This document shows positions 45,321-62,276 of a stretch of DNA of 64,000 nt, piece after piece. Below the pieces are notes generated by a model, which saw nothing but the letters and a program-made list of their open reading frames with translations, did no database searches and was not told where the DNA came from. The translations under genes were made by a program, and so were the position numbers. The stretch comes from Oceanibaculum nanhaiense (lineage in GTDB: Bacteria > Pseudomonadota > Alphaproteobacteria > Oceanibaculales > Oceanibaculaceae): the NCBI RefSeq assembly GCF_002148795.1, contig NZ_MPOB01000004.1, positions 248,001 through 312,000 of the forward strand. Direction: 5' to 3'. Position 1 is the first letter of the stretch. Each line of letters opens with the position of its first letter.

Positions 45321-46691
45321 TCAGGCCACCGATTGACGGAGATGATTGATGAGATCGACCTTGGTGATCAGGCCGAGGAATTTACTGCCTTCGACGACGA
45401 TGGCGACATGGTCCTGGCGGAAGATCGGGATCAGGTCGGGGATTTTCGCGGTCGGCGCCAGGGTTTCCAGCCGGCTGGTCATGGCGCCCCGGACCGGGGA
45501 TTTGAAGCATTCCGGATTGTCGTGGGTTGCCAGCAGCAGATCGCTTTCATCGAGGATGCCGACGATGCGGTCATTCTCCAGCACCGGCAATTGCGAGATG
45601 TCGTAGAGCCGCATCCGGCCATAGGCGGTCAGCAGCGTATCGCCCGGCTCAACGCTGATCACCTCGCCCTTCGGGGCCTGACGGCTGATCAGGTCGCGCA
45701 GGTCACCGGTCTGCTCGCGGGCAGTCAGCCCCTGATCCTGCAGCCAGAAATCATTATAGGCCTTGGAGAGATACTTGTTGCCGCTGTCGCAGACGAAGGT
45801 GACGACGCGCTTCGGCGTGGTCTGTGCGCGGCAGTAGCGCAGGGCGGCGGCGATCAGCGTGCCCGACGAGGTGCCGGCCAATATGCCTTCCTTAATCAGT
45901 AGCTCGCGCACCGTGGCGAAGGCTTCGGTATCGTCCACCGTGATGGCCGTGCTGACCAGATCGAGGTCGCAATTCGGCGGAATGAAATCCTCGCCGATGC
46001 CCTCGACCAGCCAGGAGCCGGCCTCGCCGACATGGCCGGAGCGGGTGGCCTCGGCCAGGATCGAGCCTTTGGGATCGGCCAGCACCATCTCAACCTTGGG
46101 GGCGGCCTTGCGGAAGAACCGCCCCAGGCCGGTCAGCGTACCACCGGAGCCGACGCCGCAGACCATGGCGTCCATGTCGCCCTCCATCTGCGCCCAGATT
46201 TCCGGGCCGGTGCCGGTTTCGTGCGCCAGTGGATTGGCCGGGTTGGCAAACTGGTTCATCCAGTAGCCGCCGGGAACCTCCTTCTCCAGCCGCTCCGCCA
46301 TGTCCTGGTAATAGGCCGGATGGCCACGCCCGACATCGGACCGGGTCATGACGATCTCGGTACCCAGCGCGCGCAGATGGTTGATCTTCTCCTGGCTCAT
46401 CTTGTCCGGGATGACCAGCAGCAGCTTGTAGCCCTTCTGCGCCGCGACCAGCGCCAGGCCGAGGCCGGTATTGCCGGCGGTCGCCTCGATCAGCGTGGTC
46501 TTGCCCGGCGTGATCTTGCCCGCGCGTTCCGCCGCCTCGATCATCGACAGGCCGATGCGGTCCTTGATCGACCCGCCGGGATTCTGGCTCTCCAGCTTCA
46601 GGAACAGCCGGCACGGGCCTGTATCCAGGCGGGTGACTTCCAGCATCGGCGTGTTGCCGATCAGCGTGAGGACCGATTGCGGGGCGGGCAT
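45321..46691 (-). CDS. Cystathionine beta-synthase with C-terminal CBS-domain pair
   Basis: A 456-residue PLP fold-type II enzyme. The PLP Lys is in NPGGSIKDRIG (about residue 43), the PLP-phosphate loop is GVGSGGTLTG, and the asparagine loop TAGNTG follows. The C-terminal 120 residues are two CBS motifs (VISVEPGDTLLTAYGRM, AIVVEGSKFLGLI) that bind adenosyl ligands; in mammals they bind SAM and activate the enzyme. No haem domain is present. It condenses serine and homocysteine to cystathionine. The AT-rich leader (46692-46770) holds no SAM-II element. It is likely one transcript with the gamma-lyase gene. Confidence 0.92.
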   Translation of the reverse strand: MPAPQSVLTLIGNTPMLEVTRLDTGPCRLFLKLESQNPGGSIKDRIGLSMIEAAERAGKITPGKTTLIEATAGNTGLGLALVAAQKGYKLLLVIPDKMSQEKINHLRALGTEIVMTRSDVGRGHPAYYQDMAERLEKEVPGGYWMNQFANPANPLAHETGTGPEIWAQMEGDMDAMVCGVGSGGTLTGLGRFFRKAAPKVEMVLADPKGSILAEATRSGHVGEAGSWLVEGIGEDFIPPNCDLDLVSTAITVDDTEAFATVRELLIKEGILAGTSSGTLIAAALRYCRAQTTPKRVVTFVCDSGNKYLSKAYNDFWLQDQGLTAREQTGDLRDLISRQAPKGEVISVEPGDTLLTAYGRMRLYDISQLPVLENDRIVGILDESDLLLATHDNPECFKSPVRGAMTSRLETLAPTAKIPDLIPIFRQDHVAIVVEGSKFLGLITKVDLINHLRQSVA

Positions 46692-46866: not shown

Positions 46867-47592
46867 TTACGACAGGTCCAGTGCCTGGACGATCTTTTCC
46901 TTCCATTGCTGAAAGGCCAGCTCGGTGCGGGCGCGTGGGCGCGGCAGGTCGAGCGCGAATTCGGCATGGATATGGCCGGGATTGCCGCGCATCACCACGA
47001 TGCGGTCGCTCAAGGCCACCGCCTCCTCGACATCGTGGGTGACGAACACCATGGTGAAGCGCTCCTCGCGCCACAGCTCCAGCAGATGGTCCTGCAATTG
47101 CAGTCGGGTGAAGCTGTCGAGCGCGCTGAACGGCTCATCCAGCAGCAGGATGGAGGGGCGGCGCACCAGCGCGCGGGCAATTGCCACGCGTTGCGCCATG
47201 CCGCCGGACAGCTGGCGCGGATAGGCCAGCGCGAAATCGGCCAGCCCGACCTTCGCCAGCACATCCGCGATCTTGCGGTCCTGCGTCGCCTTGTCCTCAT
47301 CCTTCAGGGCAAAGCGGACATTATCGGCCACACTCAGCCAGGGCATCAGCCGGGCTTCCTGGAACACCATGCCGATTTCCGGGTGCGGGCCGTTGACCGG
47401 ATCGCCGTCGATAGCGACGCGGCCATGGCTGGCGCTTTCCAGCCCGGAGAGGATGCGCAGCAGCGTGGACTTCCCGCAGCCCGAGGTGCCGACGAGGCTG
47501 ACGATTTCCGACTGGTCGATGGCCAGATCGACATCGTTCAGCGCGATCACGCCATTCGGGAAGTGCTTGGCGAGACTATCGATTGCGAGCAT
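46867..47592 (-). CDS. NitT/TauT-type ABC transporter ATPase (SsuB/TauB-like)
   Basis: A 241-residue ABC ATPase. Walker A is GTSGCGKST (about 36-44), the signature LSGGMAQRVAIARAL and Walker B ILLLDEPFSALD are intact, and the His switch lies in VFVTHDVEEAV. It powers import with the membrane partner whose gene overlaps its start by 17 bp. Sequence resembles nitrate/sulfonate/taurine importers. The SAM-II switch at the head of the operon points to a sulfur substrate. A terminator follows. Confidence 0.92.
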   Translation of the reverse strand: MLAIDSLAKHFPNGVIALNDVDLAIDQSEIVSLVGTSGCGKSTLLRILSGLESASHGRVAIDGDPVNGPHPEIGMVFQEARLMPWLSVADNVRFALKDEDKATQDRKIADVLAKVGLADFALAYPRQLSGGMAQRVAIARALVRRPSILLLDEPFSALDSFTRLQLQDHLLELWREERFTMVFVTHDVEEAVALSDRIVVMRGNPGHIHAEFALDLPRPRARTELAFQQWKEKIVQALDLS

Positions 47593-48466
47593 GGGAGGCT
47601 CCCTTCATATCGCCGAAACCGTCCTGCCAGGCGAGGAACGGGCGCGCCGAGGCGGCCAGAATGGCATCGGTCAGCTTGCCGGCGATGGCGAACAGGATGA
47701 GGCTGGCGACGATCACCGCCGGGCGGCCGGTCATCTGGCCATCGACCATCAGATAGCCGAGGCCCTCGCTCGCCCCCATCAGCTCAGCGGCGATGACGAA
47801 CATCCAGCCCAGCGCCAGACCGGCGCGCAGGCCCACCACATAGGAGGGCAGGGTGGCCGGCAGCAGCACCCGGCGGACCAGATCCAGCCGGCTGAAGCGG
47901 TTCAGCTTCGCCACTTCCACCAGCTTGCGGTCAACGCCCTGAATGCCCTCGACCAGATTCAGATAGATCGGGAAGAAAACGCCGACCGCGATCAGCGTTA
48001 CCTTGGAGGCCTCGAAAATGCCGAACCACAGGATGAACAGCGGCACCCAGGCCAGCGAGGGCACCGCCTTCAGCGCCTGCAGCGTGGGATCGAGCAGCTC
48101 CCGCGTGGTGCGGGAATAGCCGGTCAGCGCGCCCAGCAGCGTCGCCGCCGCGGTGCCGGCGAGGAAGCCGAAGAACACCCGGGTCAGCGTGACGCCGATA
48201 TGGCTGGTCAGCTCGCCGCTGGCCCACAGGGCGGAGATTTCCGCCAGCACCGCTTCCGGGCTGGGCACCAGATTGGGCGCGAACACGCCGGTCCAGGACA
48301 GCGCCGCCCAGCCCGCCAGCAGCAGGGCCGGGACGATCAGCCCCTTGGTGCCGGCAAGTGCCGCCAGCGGATGCCGCCGGCGCGCCCCAACGACGGCTCC
48401 AGCGGCAGCCCCCGAGGGGACTGCCGCCGTATTCGCCGTGTCGCGGTCATAGACCTCGGCGGTCAT
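47576..48466 (-). CDS. NitT/TauT-type ABC transporter permease (SsuC/TauC-like)
   Basis: A 296-residue membrane protein with six predicted helices and the ATPase-contact EAA loop (ELMGASEGLGYLMVDGQ). The N-terminal part has a hydrophilic tail before the first helix. It overlaps the substrate-binding-protein gene upstream by 4 bp and the ATPase gene by 17 bp, so the three are one transcription unit. The transported substrate is probably an organosulfur compound, on regulatory grounds. Confidence 0.92.
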   Translation of the reverse strand: MTAEVYDRDTANTAAVPSGAAAGAVVGARRRHPLAALAGTKGLIVPALLLAGWAALSWTGVFAPNLVPSPEAVLAEISALWASGELTSHIGVTLTRVFFGFLAGTAAATLLGALTGYSRTTRELLDPTLQALKAVPSLAWVPLFILWFGIFEASKVTLIAVGVFFPIYLNLVEGIQGVDRKLVEVAKLNRFSRLDLVRRVLLPATLPSYVVGLRAGLALGWMFVIAAELMGASEGLGYLMVDGQMTGRPAVIVASLILFAIAGKLTDAILAASARPFLAWQDGFGDMKGASHARNR

Positions 48467-49470
48467 CGCTGCGCCGCCTGCTGCCGGTTGACGCGCTGGA
48501 TGTACTGGTCGTCGATCAGGTCGGCGACCAGCGCCGGCACGTCGGTATCGGGTTTCAGCACGCCGATCTCCTTCAGCACGGTGCCGGCGGCGGTCAGTGC
48601 CTTGCGGTGCTCCTCGCCAATCACCGGGTTGGTGAGGTCGGTGCGCTCGCCCAGCTGCTTCCGGGCGATCTCGTCCTCGACCTTCGCGGCCTTCACCAGG
48701 TAGGAGCGCAGCTCGTCCGGGTTCTCCAGGGAATATTTGCGGGCGCGCTCATAGACTTTCAGCAGCCGCTCGACGATCTCCGGGTTCTCCGTCGCGAAAT
48801 CCTCGCGGACATTCAGCACGCCATAGGTGTTCAGCGCCGGGTCGCGGTGGAACAGCCGGGCGCCTTCCTGCAGCTCATGCTTGGCCATGTGCGGGTCGAG
48901 GCCGGCCCAGGCATCGACCTGGCCGCTGACCAGCGCGCGCCCGCCATCGGGGTGCTGCAGCAGCACCGGCTTGATGTCCTTCTCGGTCAGGCCGGCCTGG
49001 TTCAGCGCCTGCAGCAGGAACAGATGCGGGTCGGTGCCGCGGGTCACGGCGACGCGCTTGCCCTTCAGGTCGGCGACGGATTTGATGCCGCTGTCCTTGC
49101 CGGTGACCAGCGCCGTCCATTCCGGGCGAGAATAGATGTAGATCGCCTTGATCGGGTTGCCGTTGGCCTTGCCGACCAGCGCCGCGCCGCCGGCAGTAGA
49201 GCCGAACTGGATGGAGCCGCCATTCAGGTATTCCAGCGCCTTGTTGGAGCCGAGGCTCAGCACCCAGCGGACATCGATGCCGTCCTTCTTGAACTCCTCC
49301 TCGACCCAGCCCTTGTCCTTCAGCAGCAGGCTGACCGGATTGTAATAGGCATAGTCGAGGCCGATGCGGTCGGGAGCGGCCTGTGCGGCGCCCGCCCCGA
49401 CTGTCAGGGCGATTGCGGCGGCGGCAAGCGTGCCGAGCTGAAAGGTGCGGCGGGTGATCTTGATGGTCAT
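48463..49470 (-). CDS. NitT/TauT-type ABC transporter periplasmic substrate-binding protein
   Basis: A 335-residue protein. The N-terminus has a twin-arginine-like signal (ITRRTFQLG, followed by a hydrophobic stretch and AQA cleavage near residue 34), so it is exported, perhaps by Tat. The mature part matches aliphatic-sulfonate/nitrate binding proteins (IQFGSTAGGAALVGKANGNP, KGKRVAVTRGTDPH). The start at 49470 has GGAGAG just upstream; the longer frame runs into the riboswitch leader. Its leader carries a SAM-II aptamer and terminator, so synthesis should stop when SAM is plentiful. A sulfur source such as a sulfonate or methionine-related compound is the best guess. Confidence 0.9.
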   Translation of the reverse strand: MTIKITRRTFQLGTLAAAAIALTVGAGAAQAAPDRIGLDYAYYNPVSLLLKDKGWVEEEFKKDGIDVRWVLSLGSNKALEYLNGGSIQFGSTAGGAALVGKANGNPIKAIYIYSRPEWTALVTGKDSGIKSVADLKGKRVAVTRGTDPHLFLLQALNQAGLTEKDIKPVLLQHPDGGRALVSGQVDAWAGLDPHMAKHELQEGARLFHRDPALNTYGVLNVREDFATENPEIVERLLKVYERARKYSLENPDELRSYLVKAAKVEDEIARKQLGERTDLTNPVIGEEHRKALTAAGTVLKEIGVLKPDTDVPALVADLIDDQYIQRVNRQQAAQR

Positions 49471-49557: not shown

Positions 49558-49594
49558 AAAAAAATATCCGCCTCGGCTCCAGAGCCGGGCGGAT
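49558..49594 (-). terminator. Riboswitch-controlled intrinsic terminator of the ABC operon
   Basis: On the minus strand, arms ATCCGCC and GGCGGAT with an inner GGCTC/GAGCC-type helix, then ATTTTTTT. The bases just 5' of it (AGAGCGGGCG, 3' side of the aptamer) can pair with the terminator's 5' arm (CGCCCGGCTCT, one bulge), which would form an antiterminator when SAM is absent. Confidence 0.85.
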
Positions 49595-49603
49595 TCGCCC
49601 GCT

Positions 49604-49656
49604 CTCTTTAGCAGAATTTATAAAGCGCCCCGCAAGCTGAGCCTCAAATCGGCGCT
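49604..49656 (-). promoter_or_regulatory. SAM-II riboswitch upstream of the ABC transporter operon
   Basis: Read on the minus strand, AGCGCC-GATTTGAGG... GGGGCGCT forms helix P1, followed by an A/U-rich TTTATAAATT strand and the invariant GCTAAAG at the 3' end. This order (P1 arm, GATTTG, GCTTGC, P1 arm, AT-rich joint, GCTAAA) is the SAM-II (SAM-alpha) consensus found in alphaproteobacteria. It begins about 10 bp after a sigma-70-like promoter and is followed by a terminator, so SAM should switch the operon off. Confidence 0.92.
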
Positions 49657-49664
49657 ATGAAGTC

Positions 49665-49693
49665 TTTGTAATCTACAGTTTCGGTGTCGTCAA
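49665..49693 (-). promoter_or_regulatory. Sigma-70-like promoter of the ABC operon
   Basis: On the minus strand TTGACG (-35, 49688-49693), 17 bp, TACAAA (-10, 49665-49670). The predicted transcript start is at about 49657-49659, at the first base of the SAM-II aptamer. Confidence 0.75.
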
Positions 49694-50251: not shown

Positions 50252-50273
50252 GATCCATCTCCGCATGCTCGTC

Positions 50274-50306
50274 AAAAAAAATCCGCCGCAGCTAAAGCTG
50301 GGCGGA
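50274..50306 (-). terminator. Riboswitch-controlled intrinsic terminator of the OsmC gene
   Basis: On the minus strand TCCGCCCAGCT / AGCTGCGGCGGA with a TT loop, then T8. GCAGCTAAAGC of the aptamer's 3' end is exactly complementary to GCTTTAGCTGC within this hairpin, so aptamer and terminator exchange partners. Confidence 0.92.
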
Positions 50307-50315
50307 ATGGGGCCG

Positions 50316-50369
50316 ACGCTTTAGCTGCATTTGTAAAGCGCCCGCAAGCTGCTGCTCAAATCGGCGCTA
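50316..50369 (-). promoter_or_regulatory. SAM-II riboswitch upstream of the OsmC gene
   Basis: On the minus strand TAGCGCC-GATTTGAGC... GCGGGCGCT forms P1, then TTTACAAATGC and GCTAAAGC. The same landmarks as at 49604-49656, with most of the aptamer shared but a different loop and a separate terminator. The two switches are about 660 bp apart and their sequence similarity suggests duplication. Confidence 0.92.
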
Positions 50370-50375
50370 AGCGGA

Positions 50376-50404
50376 AAAATACGGGCGGGGGATGGAGGAG
50401 TCAA
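50376..50404 (-). promoter_or_regulatory. Sigma-70-like promoter of the OsmC gene
   Basis: On the minus strand TTGACT (-35, 50399-50404), 17 bp, TATTTT (-10, 50376-50381). Transcription would start within a few bases of the SAM-II aptamer, like the promoter at 49665-49693. Confidence 0.75.
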
Positions 50405-50449
50405 CGGGGGAGCTTATGGGTTTCTTTCTTCGTCCCAGTTTCCTCAGAC

Positions 50450-50550
50450 CGTCACCCCCGCACTTGTTGCGGGGGTCCAGGCTTCCGTTTGCTGGATGTT
50501 TGCCGAGCAGGCTGAACCCTGGATTCCCGCAACAAGTGCGGGAATGACGG
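50450..50550. repeat. Double-hairpin intergenic repeat, family A, reverse orientation
   Basis: Ends CCGTCACCCCC and GGAATGACGG are the reverse complement of the other copies. Hairpins CCCCCGC/GCGGGGG and ATTCCCGC/GCGGGAAT flank a 45-50 bp spacer. It lies between queG and the OsmC gene leader. Confidence 0.85.
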
Positions 50551-50593
50551 TTTGAGGTGAACGCAGACGATCTTATGAGGAAGGAGAAGGACG

Positions 50594-59680: not shown

Positions 59681-60661
59681 CTATTCCGCCGCGTGGGCGG
59701 TGTTGGGGTAGAGCCGGGCCAGCTCGGCGCTGAAGAAATCCGCCAGCGCGCCGCGCCCCGACAGGCCGGCGCGGGCCTCTGCCTCGGTGTTGTAGTTGGT
59801 GTTGGTGTTGATGTCGTAGGTGCGTGGCCGGCCATCGCTGCCGAGGATGAACTCGACGCCGGCGACCTCCACGCTGTTCTCGGCCAGCATGCGCTCGTAG
59901 CCGGCCTTCTGCACCGGGTCGATCTCCGTCACGATCTCGAATTTCGGGCGGGCGGCTTCTTCGCCGACCGGGCAGAAGGCGTCGCCGACTGCGCAGGCAT
60001 CCGCCGGGCACAGCTCGAACCCGCCGCTGGTATCGACGCGCACGGCGTAGAGGAAGCGCCCGCCAACGAACTCGCAGCGGGTGATGAAGGGCTCCGGCGC
60101 CTTGATGTATTCCTGCAGCAGGTGGATGCCGTCCACCGGTTCGTCATAGAGCGGGCTTTCGGCATAGGCGGCAAGCCCGTCCATGCTGTTGAACAGCTGC
60201 ACGCCCAGCCCCTTGCCGCCGCGATTGGGCTTCAGGATCACCGGCCCGTCACCGAAATGCGCCTTTGCCGCCTCGACCAGCCGGTCGCGGCCCAGCACCA
60301 TCACCGTGCGCGGCGTCTCGATGCCGGCCTTTTCCAGGGCCGCATACTGGCGCGCCTTGGAGAGTTCGAGGTCGAGCGCGCGCACGCCGTTCACCACGCG
60401 CCTGCCATGGCGTTCCAGCCAGGTCAGCAATCCTGCGGTCAGGTCGGTGGAGAAGCGATGGTCGCGGGTATGGGCCGAGGCGCTCATCCGGCTGAAGAAG
60501 ATACCGTGCGGCGGTTCGGCGGAGATGTCGATGGCGCCGTCTGACAAATCCCAGCCCCGCCAGGGCAGGCCGCGCGCGTCGAACAGCTCGGCCAGTGGCG
60601 CCAGCCAGTCGGCATTTTCGTACAGCACGTAAATGCGTGCGTCGTCCGATTCGGGGAACAT
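59681..60661 (-). CDS. RimK-like ATP-grasp ligase
   Basis: A 326-residue ATP-grasp protein. The ATP-binding Lys and glycine-rich loop appear in ILKPNRGGKGLGVQLFNS, with the metal-binding Glu and Asn in VAGVEFILGSDGRP and YDINTNTNYN. These enzymes form amide bonds between an acyl phosphate and an amine or thiol. It starts in a 1-base overlap with the OsmC gene, and both are in a metZ operon, so a sulfur-containing peptide or cofactor could be the product. No partner peptide gene is visible. Confidence 0.82.
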   Translation of the reverse strand: MFPESDDARIYVLYENADWLAPLAELFDARGLPWRGWDLSDGAIDISAEPPHGIFFSRMSASAHTRDHRFSTDLTAGLLTWLERHGRRVVNGVRALDLELSKARQYAALEKAGIETPRTVMVLGRDRLVEAAKAHFGDGPVILKPNRGGKGLGVQLFNSMDGLAAYAESPLYDEPVDGIHLLQEYIKAPEPFITRCEFVGGRFLYAVRVDTSGGFELCPADACAVGDAFCPVGEEAARPKFEIVTEIDPVQKAGYERMLAENSVEVAGVEFILGSDGRPRTYDINTNTNYNTEAEARAGLSGRGALADFFSAELARLYPNTAHAAE

Positions 60662-61086
60662 CAGCCCAGCTCCTCGATCACGACCTCATGGGTCATCGCC
60701 GCCGTCTTATTGATGATATGGGTGGCCGAGCAGTATTTCTCGACCGAAAGTTCGACCGCGCGGTTCACCGCGTCCGCCGACAGGCCGCGCCCCTTCACCA
60801 GGTAGCGCATATGCACCTTGGTGAAGACCTTGGGATGGTCCTCGGCGCGTTCCGCCTCGATCTCGACCTGGCAATCCTCGATCGGCTGGCGGCCCTTCTG
60901 CAGGATCATCACCACGTCGAAGGCGGTGCAGCCGCCAAGCCCCAGCAGCAGCATCTCCATCGGTCGCGGCCCCAGATTCTTGCCGCCATATTCGGGGGCG
61001 CCGTCCATGACGAGGGCATGGCCGGTGCCGCTCTCGCCCATGAAGGCCATGCCGTCGATCCACTTTACCCGCGTCTTCATGCTCAT
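60661..61086 (-). CDS. OsmC-family protein (YhfA-like), in the metZ operon
   Basis: A 141-residue OsmC-fold protein. Conserved Cys C53 (LGLGGCTAFDV) and C119 (VEKYCSATHI) form the thiol site. It resembles the YhfA subfamily, whose function is not settled. It overlaps metZ by 4 bp and the ATP-grasp gene by one base, so the three are tightly coupled. This is the second OsmC gene in the window placed beside sulfur-amino-acid genes or SAM switches, which points to a sulfur role (persulfide or organic peroxide) rather than osmotic stress. Confidence 0.87.
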   Translation of the reverse strand: MSMKTRVKWIDGMAFMGESGTGHALVMDGAPEYGGKNLGPRPMEMLLLGLGGCTAFDVVMILQKGRQPIEDCQVEIEAERAEDHPKVFTKVHMRYLVKGRGLSADAVNRAVELSVEKYCSATHIINKTAAMTHEVVIEELG

Positions 61087-62276
61087 ACCGCCTCCAGTGC
61101 CGCCGTCAGGTCGGCGATGATATCCTCCGCATCCTCCAGCCCGACCGAAATCCGCACCAGCCCGTCCCCGATGCCGAATTCGGCACGCTGTTCGGCCGGC
61201 ACGGCGCGGTGGGTGGTGGTCGCGGGATGGGTGATCAGGCTCTTCGAATCGCCCAGATTGTTCGAGATGTCGATAAGGTTCAGCCCGTTCAGCAGCCGGA
61301 ACGCGCCCTCCTTGCCGCCCGGCACGGTGAAGGCGATCAGGTTGCTGCCGCCCTTCATCTGCCGCTGCGCCAACTCATACTGCGGATGGCTGGACAGGCC
61401 GGGATACAGCACCGTGCCGACCTTGGGGTGCACCTCCAGCGCCTGGGCCACCGCCAGCGCGTTGCGGCCATGGCGCTCGACGCGCAGATCCAGCGTCTCC
61501 AGCCCTTTCAGCAGCACCCAGGCGTTGAACGGGCTCATCGACGGGCCGGTATGTTTGTAATAGGGCCAGAGGAATTCCTTGTGCCAGTCCGCCGGCCCCA
61601 GGATGGCGCCACCCATGCAGCGGCCCTGGCCGTCGATATGCTTGGTGGCGGAATAGACCACGATGTCGGCGCCAAGCTCCAGCGGGCGCTGCAGCATCGG
61701 CGTGGCGAACACATTATCGATGACGACACGCGCCCCTGCGGCATGCGCCAGTTCCGACACCGCCGCGATATCGACCAGTCCGAGGATCGGGTTCGACGGC
61801 GTCTCGAAGAACACCGCTTGCGCGCCGGGCTTCAGCGCGTCGCGCCAGGCTTCCAGATCGCCGCCATCGACCAGCACCGTCTCGATGCCATAGCGCGGCA
61901 GCAGGGTGGAGACGATCCAGTGGCAGGAACCGAACAGCACGCGCGACGACACCACCCGGTCGCCGGCTTTAAGGAAGCACAGCATCGCTGCTGCCACGGC
62001 CGCCATGCCGCTGGGCGTTGCGCGGCAGGTCTCGGCGCCTTCCAGCAGCCGCAGCCGTTCCTCGAACATGGCGACGGTGGGGTTGGAATAGCGCGAATAG
62101 ACGAAGCGCGAGCCTTCGTTCCTGAAGGCCGCCTCGGCCTCCTCGGCGCTGTCATAGACGAAGCCGGAGGTGAGATAGAGCGCCTCCGAGGTTTCGGAGA
62201 AGGGGCTGCGCAACTGCCCGCCACGCACCAGCTGCGTCTGCGGCTTCCAGTCTGCGCGTTTATCCTGATCGCCCAT
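61083..62276 (-). CDS. metZ: O-succinylhomoserine sulfhydrylase
   Basis: A 397-residue PLP enzyme of the Cys/Met group. The Schiff-base Lys is in VVYSATKHIDGQG (about residue 207), preceded by FFETPSNPIL, and the N-terminal FVYSRYSNPTV segment closes the active site. It makes homocysteine from O-succinylhomoserine and sulfide. The sequence follows the MetZ rather than MetB style. It heads an operon with OsmC and ATP-grasp genes. The 70 bp upstream, including 62277-62346, contains no SAM-II element, although this gene is a common SAM-II target elsewhere. Confidence 0.9.
   Translation of the reverse strand: MGDQDKRADWKPQTQLVRGGQLRSPFSETSEALYLTSGFVYDSAEEAEAAFRNEGSRFVYSRYSNPTVAMFEERLRLLEGAETCRATPSGMAAVAAAMLCFLKAGDRVVSSRVLFGSCHWIVSTLLPRYGIETVLVDGGDLEAWRDALKPGAQAVFFETPSNPILGLVDIAAVSELAHAAGARVVIDNVFATPMLQRPLELGADIVVYSATKHIDGQGRCMGGAILGPADWHKEFLWPYYKHTGPSMSPFNAWVLLKGLETLDLRVERHGRNALAVAQALEVHPKVGTVLYPGLSSHPQYELAQRQMKGGSNLIAFTVPGGKEGAFRLLNGLNLIDISNNLGDSKSLITHPATTTHRAVPAEQRAEFGIGDGLVRISVGLEDAEDIIADLTAALEAV

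Follow-up and report, generated by a model that had tools for sequence, protein, structure and literature searches.

A SAM-II element precedes osmC in sampled Alphaproteobacteria, often with an SsuABC-like importer: a testable case for OsmC in sulfur and methionine supply

As a rule, OsmC proteins are classed with the responses to osmotic or peroxide stress. The closest described case of an osmC gene behind a SAM riboswitch is that of Candidatus Pelagibacter ubique, in which osmC reportedly lies behind a SAM-V riboswitch and, of all genes, showed the strongest mRNA increase when sulfur was limiting (PMC5069961). For SAM-II, an OFF-switch layout has been described and proposed (PMC1273637), and the largest regulon survey (Leyn et al., 2014) gives in its main text the targets metY, metA, metX, metC, hom, and metW, all of them genes of methionine synthesis, a text in which neither ‘osm’ nor ‘sulfonate’ is present (PMC4239095). 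Apart from the Pelagibacter paper (PMC5069961), nothing was found in the literature on SAM-II with ssuA or sulfonate, and no link of SAM-II to osmC was found in the searchable literature. Control of an osmC by a SAM riboswitch is not new, given P. ubique, and the claim of the first-pass annotation that no target of this type had been described is not supported as it stands, although the Pelagibacter element is SAM-V and not SAM-II. What is not described in the searchable literature is SAM-II control of osmC, its spread, and its pairing with an importer.

The window, which is the whole 64,000-nt stretch of DNA analysed here, carries on its minus strand, from position 50404 downward, a promoter, a SAM-II aptamer, an intrinsic terminator, a Shine-Dalgarno sequence, and osmC (Table 1), and the span of 50274-50404 marked in the first-pass annotation as a SAM-II riboswitch indeed reaches from the promoter through the terminator. 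The promoter motif TTGACT-17-TATTTT was found once against 0.2 expected, and a sequence resembling it occurs at the equivalent place in G001 and G003, two genomes of the same genus. The aptamer contains the invariant SAM-II core nucleotides and matches RF00521 at 34.4 bits (E = 1e-05, Rfam cmscan, 1.3 kb searched), which falls 1.6 bits short of the gathering score (36). It is also the top match in its genome, at 78 bits, to R1, a covariance model built from 26 related sequences, a score that is partly circular because the window’s copy was used in building the model. Sequences outside R1 score nearly as high (74 bits in G134 and 69 bits in G180).

Table 1. Coordinates of the features of the osmC leader, osmC, and the importer operon in the window.
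Feature	Position	Strand	Detail
Sigma-70-type promoter of osmC leader	50376..50404	-	TTGACT, 17-nt spacer, TATTTT
SAM-II (SAM_alpha) aptamer of osmC leader	50301..50377	-	RF00521 match
P1 of osmC-leader aptamer	50363-50367 with 50338-50342	-	
Pseudoknot P2 of osmC-leader aptamer	CUUGC 50344-50348 with GCUAAAG 50319-50325	-	extended by G50349-C50318
Antiterminator 5' arm GCAGCUAAAGC	50318..50328	-	overlaps the aptamer's 3' pseudoknot strand
Antiterminator 3' arm GCUUUAGCUGC	50288..50298	-	within terminator hairpin
Intrinsic terminator of osmC leader	50274..50306	-	10-bp stem, one bulge, UUUA loop, 8 U
osmC, 175 aa	49724..50251	-	PF02566; Shine-Dalgarno GGAG at 50259-50262
Second SAM-II aptamer, leader of ABC transporter operon	49587..49665	-	39.9 bits, gathering score 36
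Terminator of second SAM-II leader with overlapping alternative hairpin	49558..49592	-	z about -2.3 and -2.2
SsuA-family substrate-binding protein	48463..49470	-	TIGR01728, 258.8 bits, cutoff 163.5
ABC permease, SsuC/TauC-like	47576..48466	-	
ABC ATPase, SsuB/TauB-like	46867..47592	-	
Cystathionine beta-synthase-like gene adjoining importer operon (candidate member)	45321..46691	-	

P1 is well supported by covariation in the alignment of the 26 sequences, with 98% of its cells paired and changes on both sides in 4 of 6 pairs, and the pseudoknot core of CUUGC with GCUAAA keeps its 4 core pairs in every sequence (26/26); being invariant, this core gives no covariation evidence. A wider set of 62 distinct sequences was collected from fetched loci with the pattern GCGCCGATTTG-A..CAGCTTGC-GGGCGC..GCTAAA, and the core positions are conserved across this set and the window genus, a conservation that has to be read together with the fact that the pattern itself demands part of the SAM-II core. 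The innermost variable pair of the distal helix P2b is kept in 47 of the 62 sequences versus 26 in shuffles, and the outer pairs are weak. In the window aptamer, P2b adds a single C-G and a single G-U pair to the core, and it is weaker still in G001 and G003. Judged by its sequence, the osmC-leader aptamer belongs to a SAM-II subtype with a shortened distal pseudoknot, and the short P2b explains a score slightly under the Rfam cutoff. The subtype is common, some of its members likewise scoring slightly under the cutoff, and it also precedes the classic targets metY/metZ, metH, and metNI. Elsewhere, at L083, L087, L090, and L096, SAM-II elements were observed with an extra 15-30 nt between P1 and GCTAAA, with a hairpin apparent in some.

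The expression platform of the osmC leader is exclusive with the aptamer in calculated folds, as the first-pass annotation had proposed from the letters. The 5' arm of the antiterminator, GCAGCTAAAGC, is the exact 11-nt complement of GCTTTAGCTGC in the inner arm of the terminator, and each of the two occurs once in the window. The calculated terminator has an energy of -17.6 kcal/mol (z = -4.5). The unconstrained fold of the leader contains P1 and the 11-bp antiterminator (-45.1 kcal/mol); keeping the 3' segment of the aptamer unpaired, to imitate the SAM-bound pseudoknot, gives the terminator instead. In G001 and G003, the downstream antiterminator arm reads GCTTTGGCTGC (GCUUUGGCUGC in RNA letters), and its single change preserves the pairing as U-G; the calculated lowest-energy fold of the G001 leader has the terminator already without ligand.

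A second, better-scoring SAM-II element, absent from the first-pass annotation, lies about 60 nt downstream of osmC, ahead of an SsuABC-like importer, and both SAM-II elements are retained in 3 of the 4 genomes of the window genus. The cystathionine beta-synthase-like gene that adjoins the importer operon keeps its position in G001 and G003. A third SAM-II element of the window’s genome precedes metN-metI, a methionine importer (L002 1501-1575; G000:C3:386467-386541). Outside these leaders, the window contains an imperfect 52-bp inverted repeat (50442-50558) whose core, CCCGCACTTGTTGCGGG, occurs in the window in 5 exact copies, where 0.5 would be expected when up to 3 mismatches are allowed. 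The repeat resembles a small dispersed palindromic element. Plant miRNA families of Rfam matched at 50429-50572 because of this palindromic repeat, and were rejected with scores far under gathering.

The product of osmC matches PF02566 at 65.1 bits (cutoff 27.5), in agreement with the earlier family assignment, and NCBIfam OsmC_like_Se only weakly (38.6 bits, cutoff 95), and in the PDB its sequence matches a single entry, the hypothetical protein 2OPL. It carries the cysteine pair of the family (C78/C150), which aligns with that of OsmC2 (a protein with 1VLA, named OsmC, among its PDB relatives), and two subfamily-specific cysteines (C41/C66), which are common to its close relatives, even on contigs labelled as other phyla. 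A second OsmC gene in the window (60661-61086, YhfA/TM0919-like) is overlapped by metZ (61083-62276), both on the minus strand (60661-62276 together). Searches found no SAM-II before this pair, whereas G002, of the same genus, has SAM-II, metZ, and then a YhfA-like OsmC.

The recurrence of the pairing was examined in 385 alphaproteobacterial genomes searched with RF00521, the window OsmC protein, and model R1. An OsmC of the window type occurs in 43 of them, and its surroundings were examined in 41. SAM-II precedes the cluster in 12 of the 20 genomes with an importer-linked osmC and in none of the 21 with an unlinked one (Fisher p = 1.6e-5), a zero that is slightly softer than it appears because a contig end is close by in several of the 21; one of the 12, G074, has osmC divergent from the importer gene that SAM-II precedes. 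Eighty named contigs found by protein similarity give the same picture, with SAM-II at 15 of 32 importer-linked versus 1 of 48 unlinked osmC genes (p = 1e-6), usually in the order SAM-II, binding protein, permease, ATPase, and osmC. In these relatives, which span many genera (Microvirga, Bosea, and Alsobacter among others), importer and osmC form one operon behind a single SAM-II. The single exception among the 48 is Microvirga terricola (L102, 5400-6500), in which SAM-II is followed by osmC with the apparent fused ends of a binding-protein gene between them, suggestive of an internal deletion, and with permease and ATPase missing. A count over 28 genomes places 9 of 59 OsmC genes at most 4 kb downstream of a same-strand SAM-II, where 0.08 would be expected; it serves as an illustration and not as an unbiased rate because part of these genomes were chosen for the link already seen. 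The pairing is thus not unique to the window genome. Not every operon of this kind has SAM-II, as several Methylobacterium and Beijerinckiaceae contigs carry importer-osmC operons with no GATTTGA or GCTAAA core in the leader sequence examined. An Rfam scan of 11 osmC loci on contigs labelled as other groups, including Aquibacillus and Amycolatopsis, found no riboswitch, and no importer stands beside osmC there.

SAM-II and OsmC genes also meet in other arrangements. In G033, a 1.4-Mb genome, SAM-II stands directly before osmC, followed by metZ, and scores 37.6 bits, over the RF00521 gathering score. In one genus (G040, G167, G264, and G340), tandem SAM-II elements precede an OsmC-like gene, which falls under the Pfam cutoff in G340 and has lost both cysteines in G167; at the G167 locus, which was followed further downstream, a metY-like gene comes next. 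In G379 and G108, OsmC lies 1.6 kb downstream of tandem SAM-II, with a metY-like gene between them in G379 and probably also a metY-osmC order in G108. At the level of individual loci, the OsmC-like protein behind tandem SAM-II at L254 (670-1167) has lost both catalytic cysteines, two tandem SAM-II elements precede one gene at L254, L256, L265, L266, L270, L271, and L273, and the second aptamer of such loci is of a different subtype (CGCGG..GCTAAAGCGCCAC).

Further SAM-II targets in the sampled genomes include metH, a PAPS-reductase gene (cysH-like; checked against Pfam at L257 alone), sirohaem synthase, sulfite/nitrite reductase, and a solute-binding protein. Genes on the sulfate-assimilation side, and also a YeiH-like membrane protein, were seen behind SAM-II at L257, L269, L262, L273, L266, and L258. 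Together with metNI, these targets support SAM-II as a general sulfur-supply switch in Alphaproteobacteria and extend its regulon beyond methionine synthesis, to importers and sulfate assimilation.

The best explanation, in which we infer SAM binding, the direction of control, and the chemistry of OsmC, is that the SAM-II switch represses osmC at high SAM and that OsmC acts in sulfur and methionine supply, and we regard this as likely. Points against it are the short P2b and sub-cutoff score of the window aptamer, the G001 fold that already has the terminator without ligand, the lack of SAM-II at unlinked osmC in the sample, and the G167 OsmC with neither cysteine. With plentiful SAM, the bound aptamer would pair CUUGC with GCUAAAG in the pseudoknot and keep GCAGCUAAAGC from the downstream arm, such that the terminator forms and osmC is repressed; with scarce SAM, GCAGCUAAAGC would pair with GCUUUAGCUGC, destroying the terminator and allowing transcription of osmC. 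This OFF direction is suggested by the leader geometry and by the proposal that SAM-II elements act as OFF switches (PMC1273637). The second SAM-II element would act on the importer likewise, such that a shortage of methionine or SAM would switch on osmC and the importer alike. Because the SAM-II-osmC pairing recurs across the sampled Alphaproteobacteria, usually alongside an importer of the sulfur type or an enzyme of methionine synthesis, the window OsmC is probably part of the cell’s sulfur and methionine supply and not of general stress defence; a role in sulfur metabolism had also been suggested by the first-pass annotation. OsmC most likely serves as a thiol-based enzyme beside organosulfur import or methionine synthesis, acting by reduction or protection, and probably handles reactive sulfur or peroxide species made during organosulfur uptake and its conversion to methionine. 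More tentatively, the locus could represent an undescribed organosulfur salvage module, in which a SAM-II-controlled importer of a non-SsuD-type sulfur compound and the four-cysteine OsmC feed methionine synthesis, with OsmC acting directly on the imported compound or on its thiol or persulfide product; this version is possible but has the odds against it.

OsmC could instead be a passenger, a general peroxide or stress protein that merely shares a transcription unit in a regulon that really concerns the importer or metY/metZ. OsmC proteins are classically hydroperoxide reductases, which would suit such a role, and in the genome sample osmC without an adjoining importer never carries SAM-II, such that the importer, rather than OsmC, may account for some of the signal. 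However, osmC in the window genus has its own SAM-II, separate from that of the importer, four arrangements place OsmC members of distinct branches in SAM-II units, and M. terricola has seemingly lost the importer and retained SAM-II before osmC. These points make the passenger role rather doubtful. If the importer and OsmC served the classic alkanesulfonate route, OsmC would clear peroxide from the SsuD monooxygenase. The binding protein does score over its SsuA-family cutoff, and thiol peroxidases such as LsfA and AhpC are known from sulfate-starvation regulons. On the other hand, the window’s genome has no match at all to SsuD (TIGR03565), and a true SsuD over the cutoff occurs in only 3 of the 20 genomes with the importer-osmC pair. 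The importer substrate is therefore probably not a classic alkanesulfonate, and classic alkanesulfonate metabolism is very unlikely as a general explanation.

The score under the gathering cutoff and the weakened P2b in the window genus might also mean that the SAM-II of the osmC leader has decayed or changed and is unresponsive to SAM in the cell, being either constitutive or altered in its ligand. This is improbable, as the core is conserved in the genus and the 62 subtype sequences, within the limits of the collecting pattern, and as the same subtype precedes classic targets; moreover, SAM-V, a class without the distal pairing element, nevertheless binds SAM (PMC2704228). The likely reading is a SAM-responsive osmC, and its occurrence in several arrangements under SAM riboswitches, together with the Pelagibacter sulfur response, makes a testable case that some OsmC branches belong to sulfur and methionine supply.

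Compared with known systems, the window leader resembles the metA-type SAM-II (RF00521) in P1, the pseudoknot core, the upstream promoter, and the downstream intrinsic terminator, but differs in its target, osmC, and in its subtype (GCGCCGATTTGA..CAGCTTGCGGGCGC..GCTAAAGCG), whose distal P2b is short and partly unpaired. The SAM_alpha regulons in the main text of Leyn et al. likewise rest on SAM-II in Alphaproteobacteria, which there represses sulfur amino-acid genes. The window OsmC shares the PF02566 fold family and the two-cysteine pair with the OsmC/Ohr hydroperoxide reductases, yet belongs to a subfamily with two additional conserved cysteines, and the importer matches the SsuABC alkanesulfonate system in its SsuA-family binding protein, permease, and ATPase. 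In P. ubique, the riboswitch is a SAM-V acting on translation and no SsuABC-like importer is described; bhmT, a neighbour of osmC, carries SAM-II and SAM-V in tandem. By reported context, P. ubique and the window both have osmC behind a SAM riboswitch.
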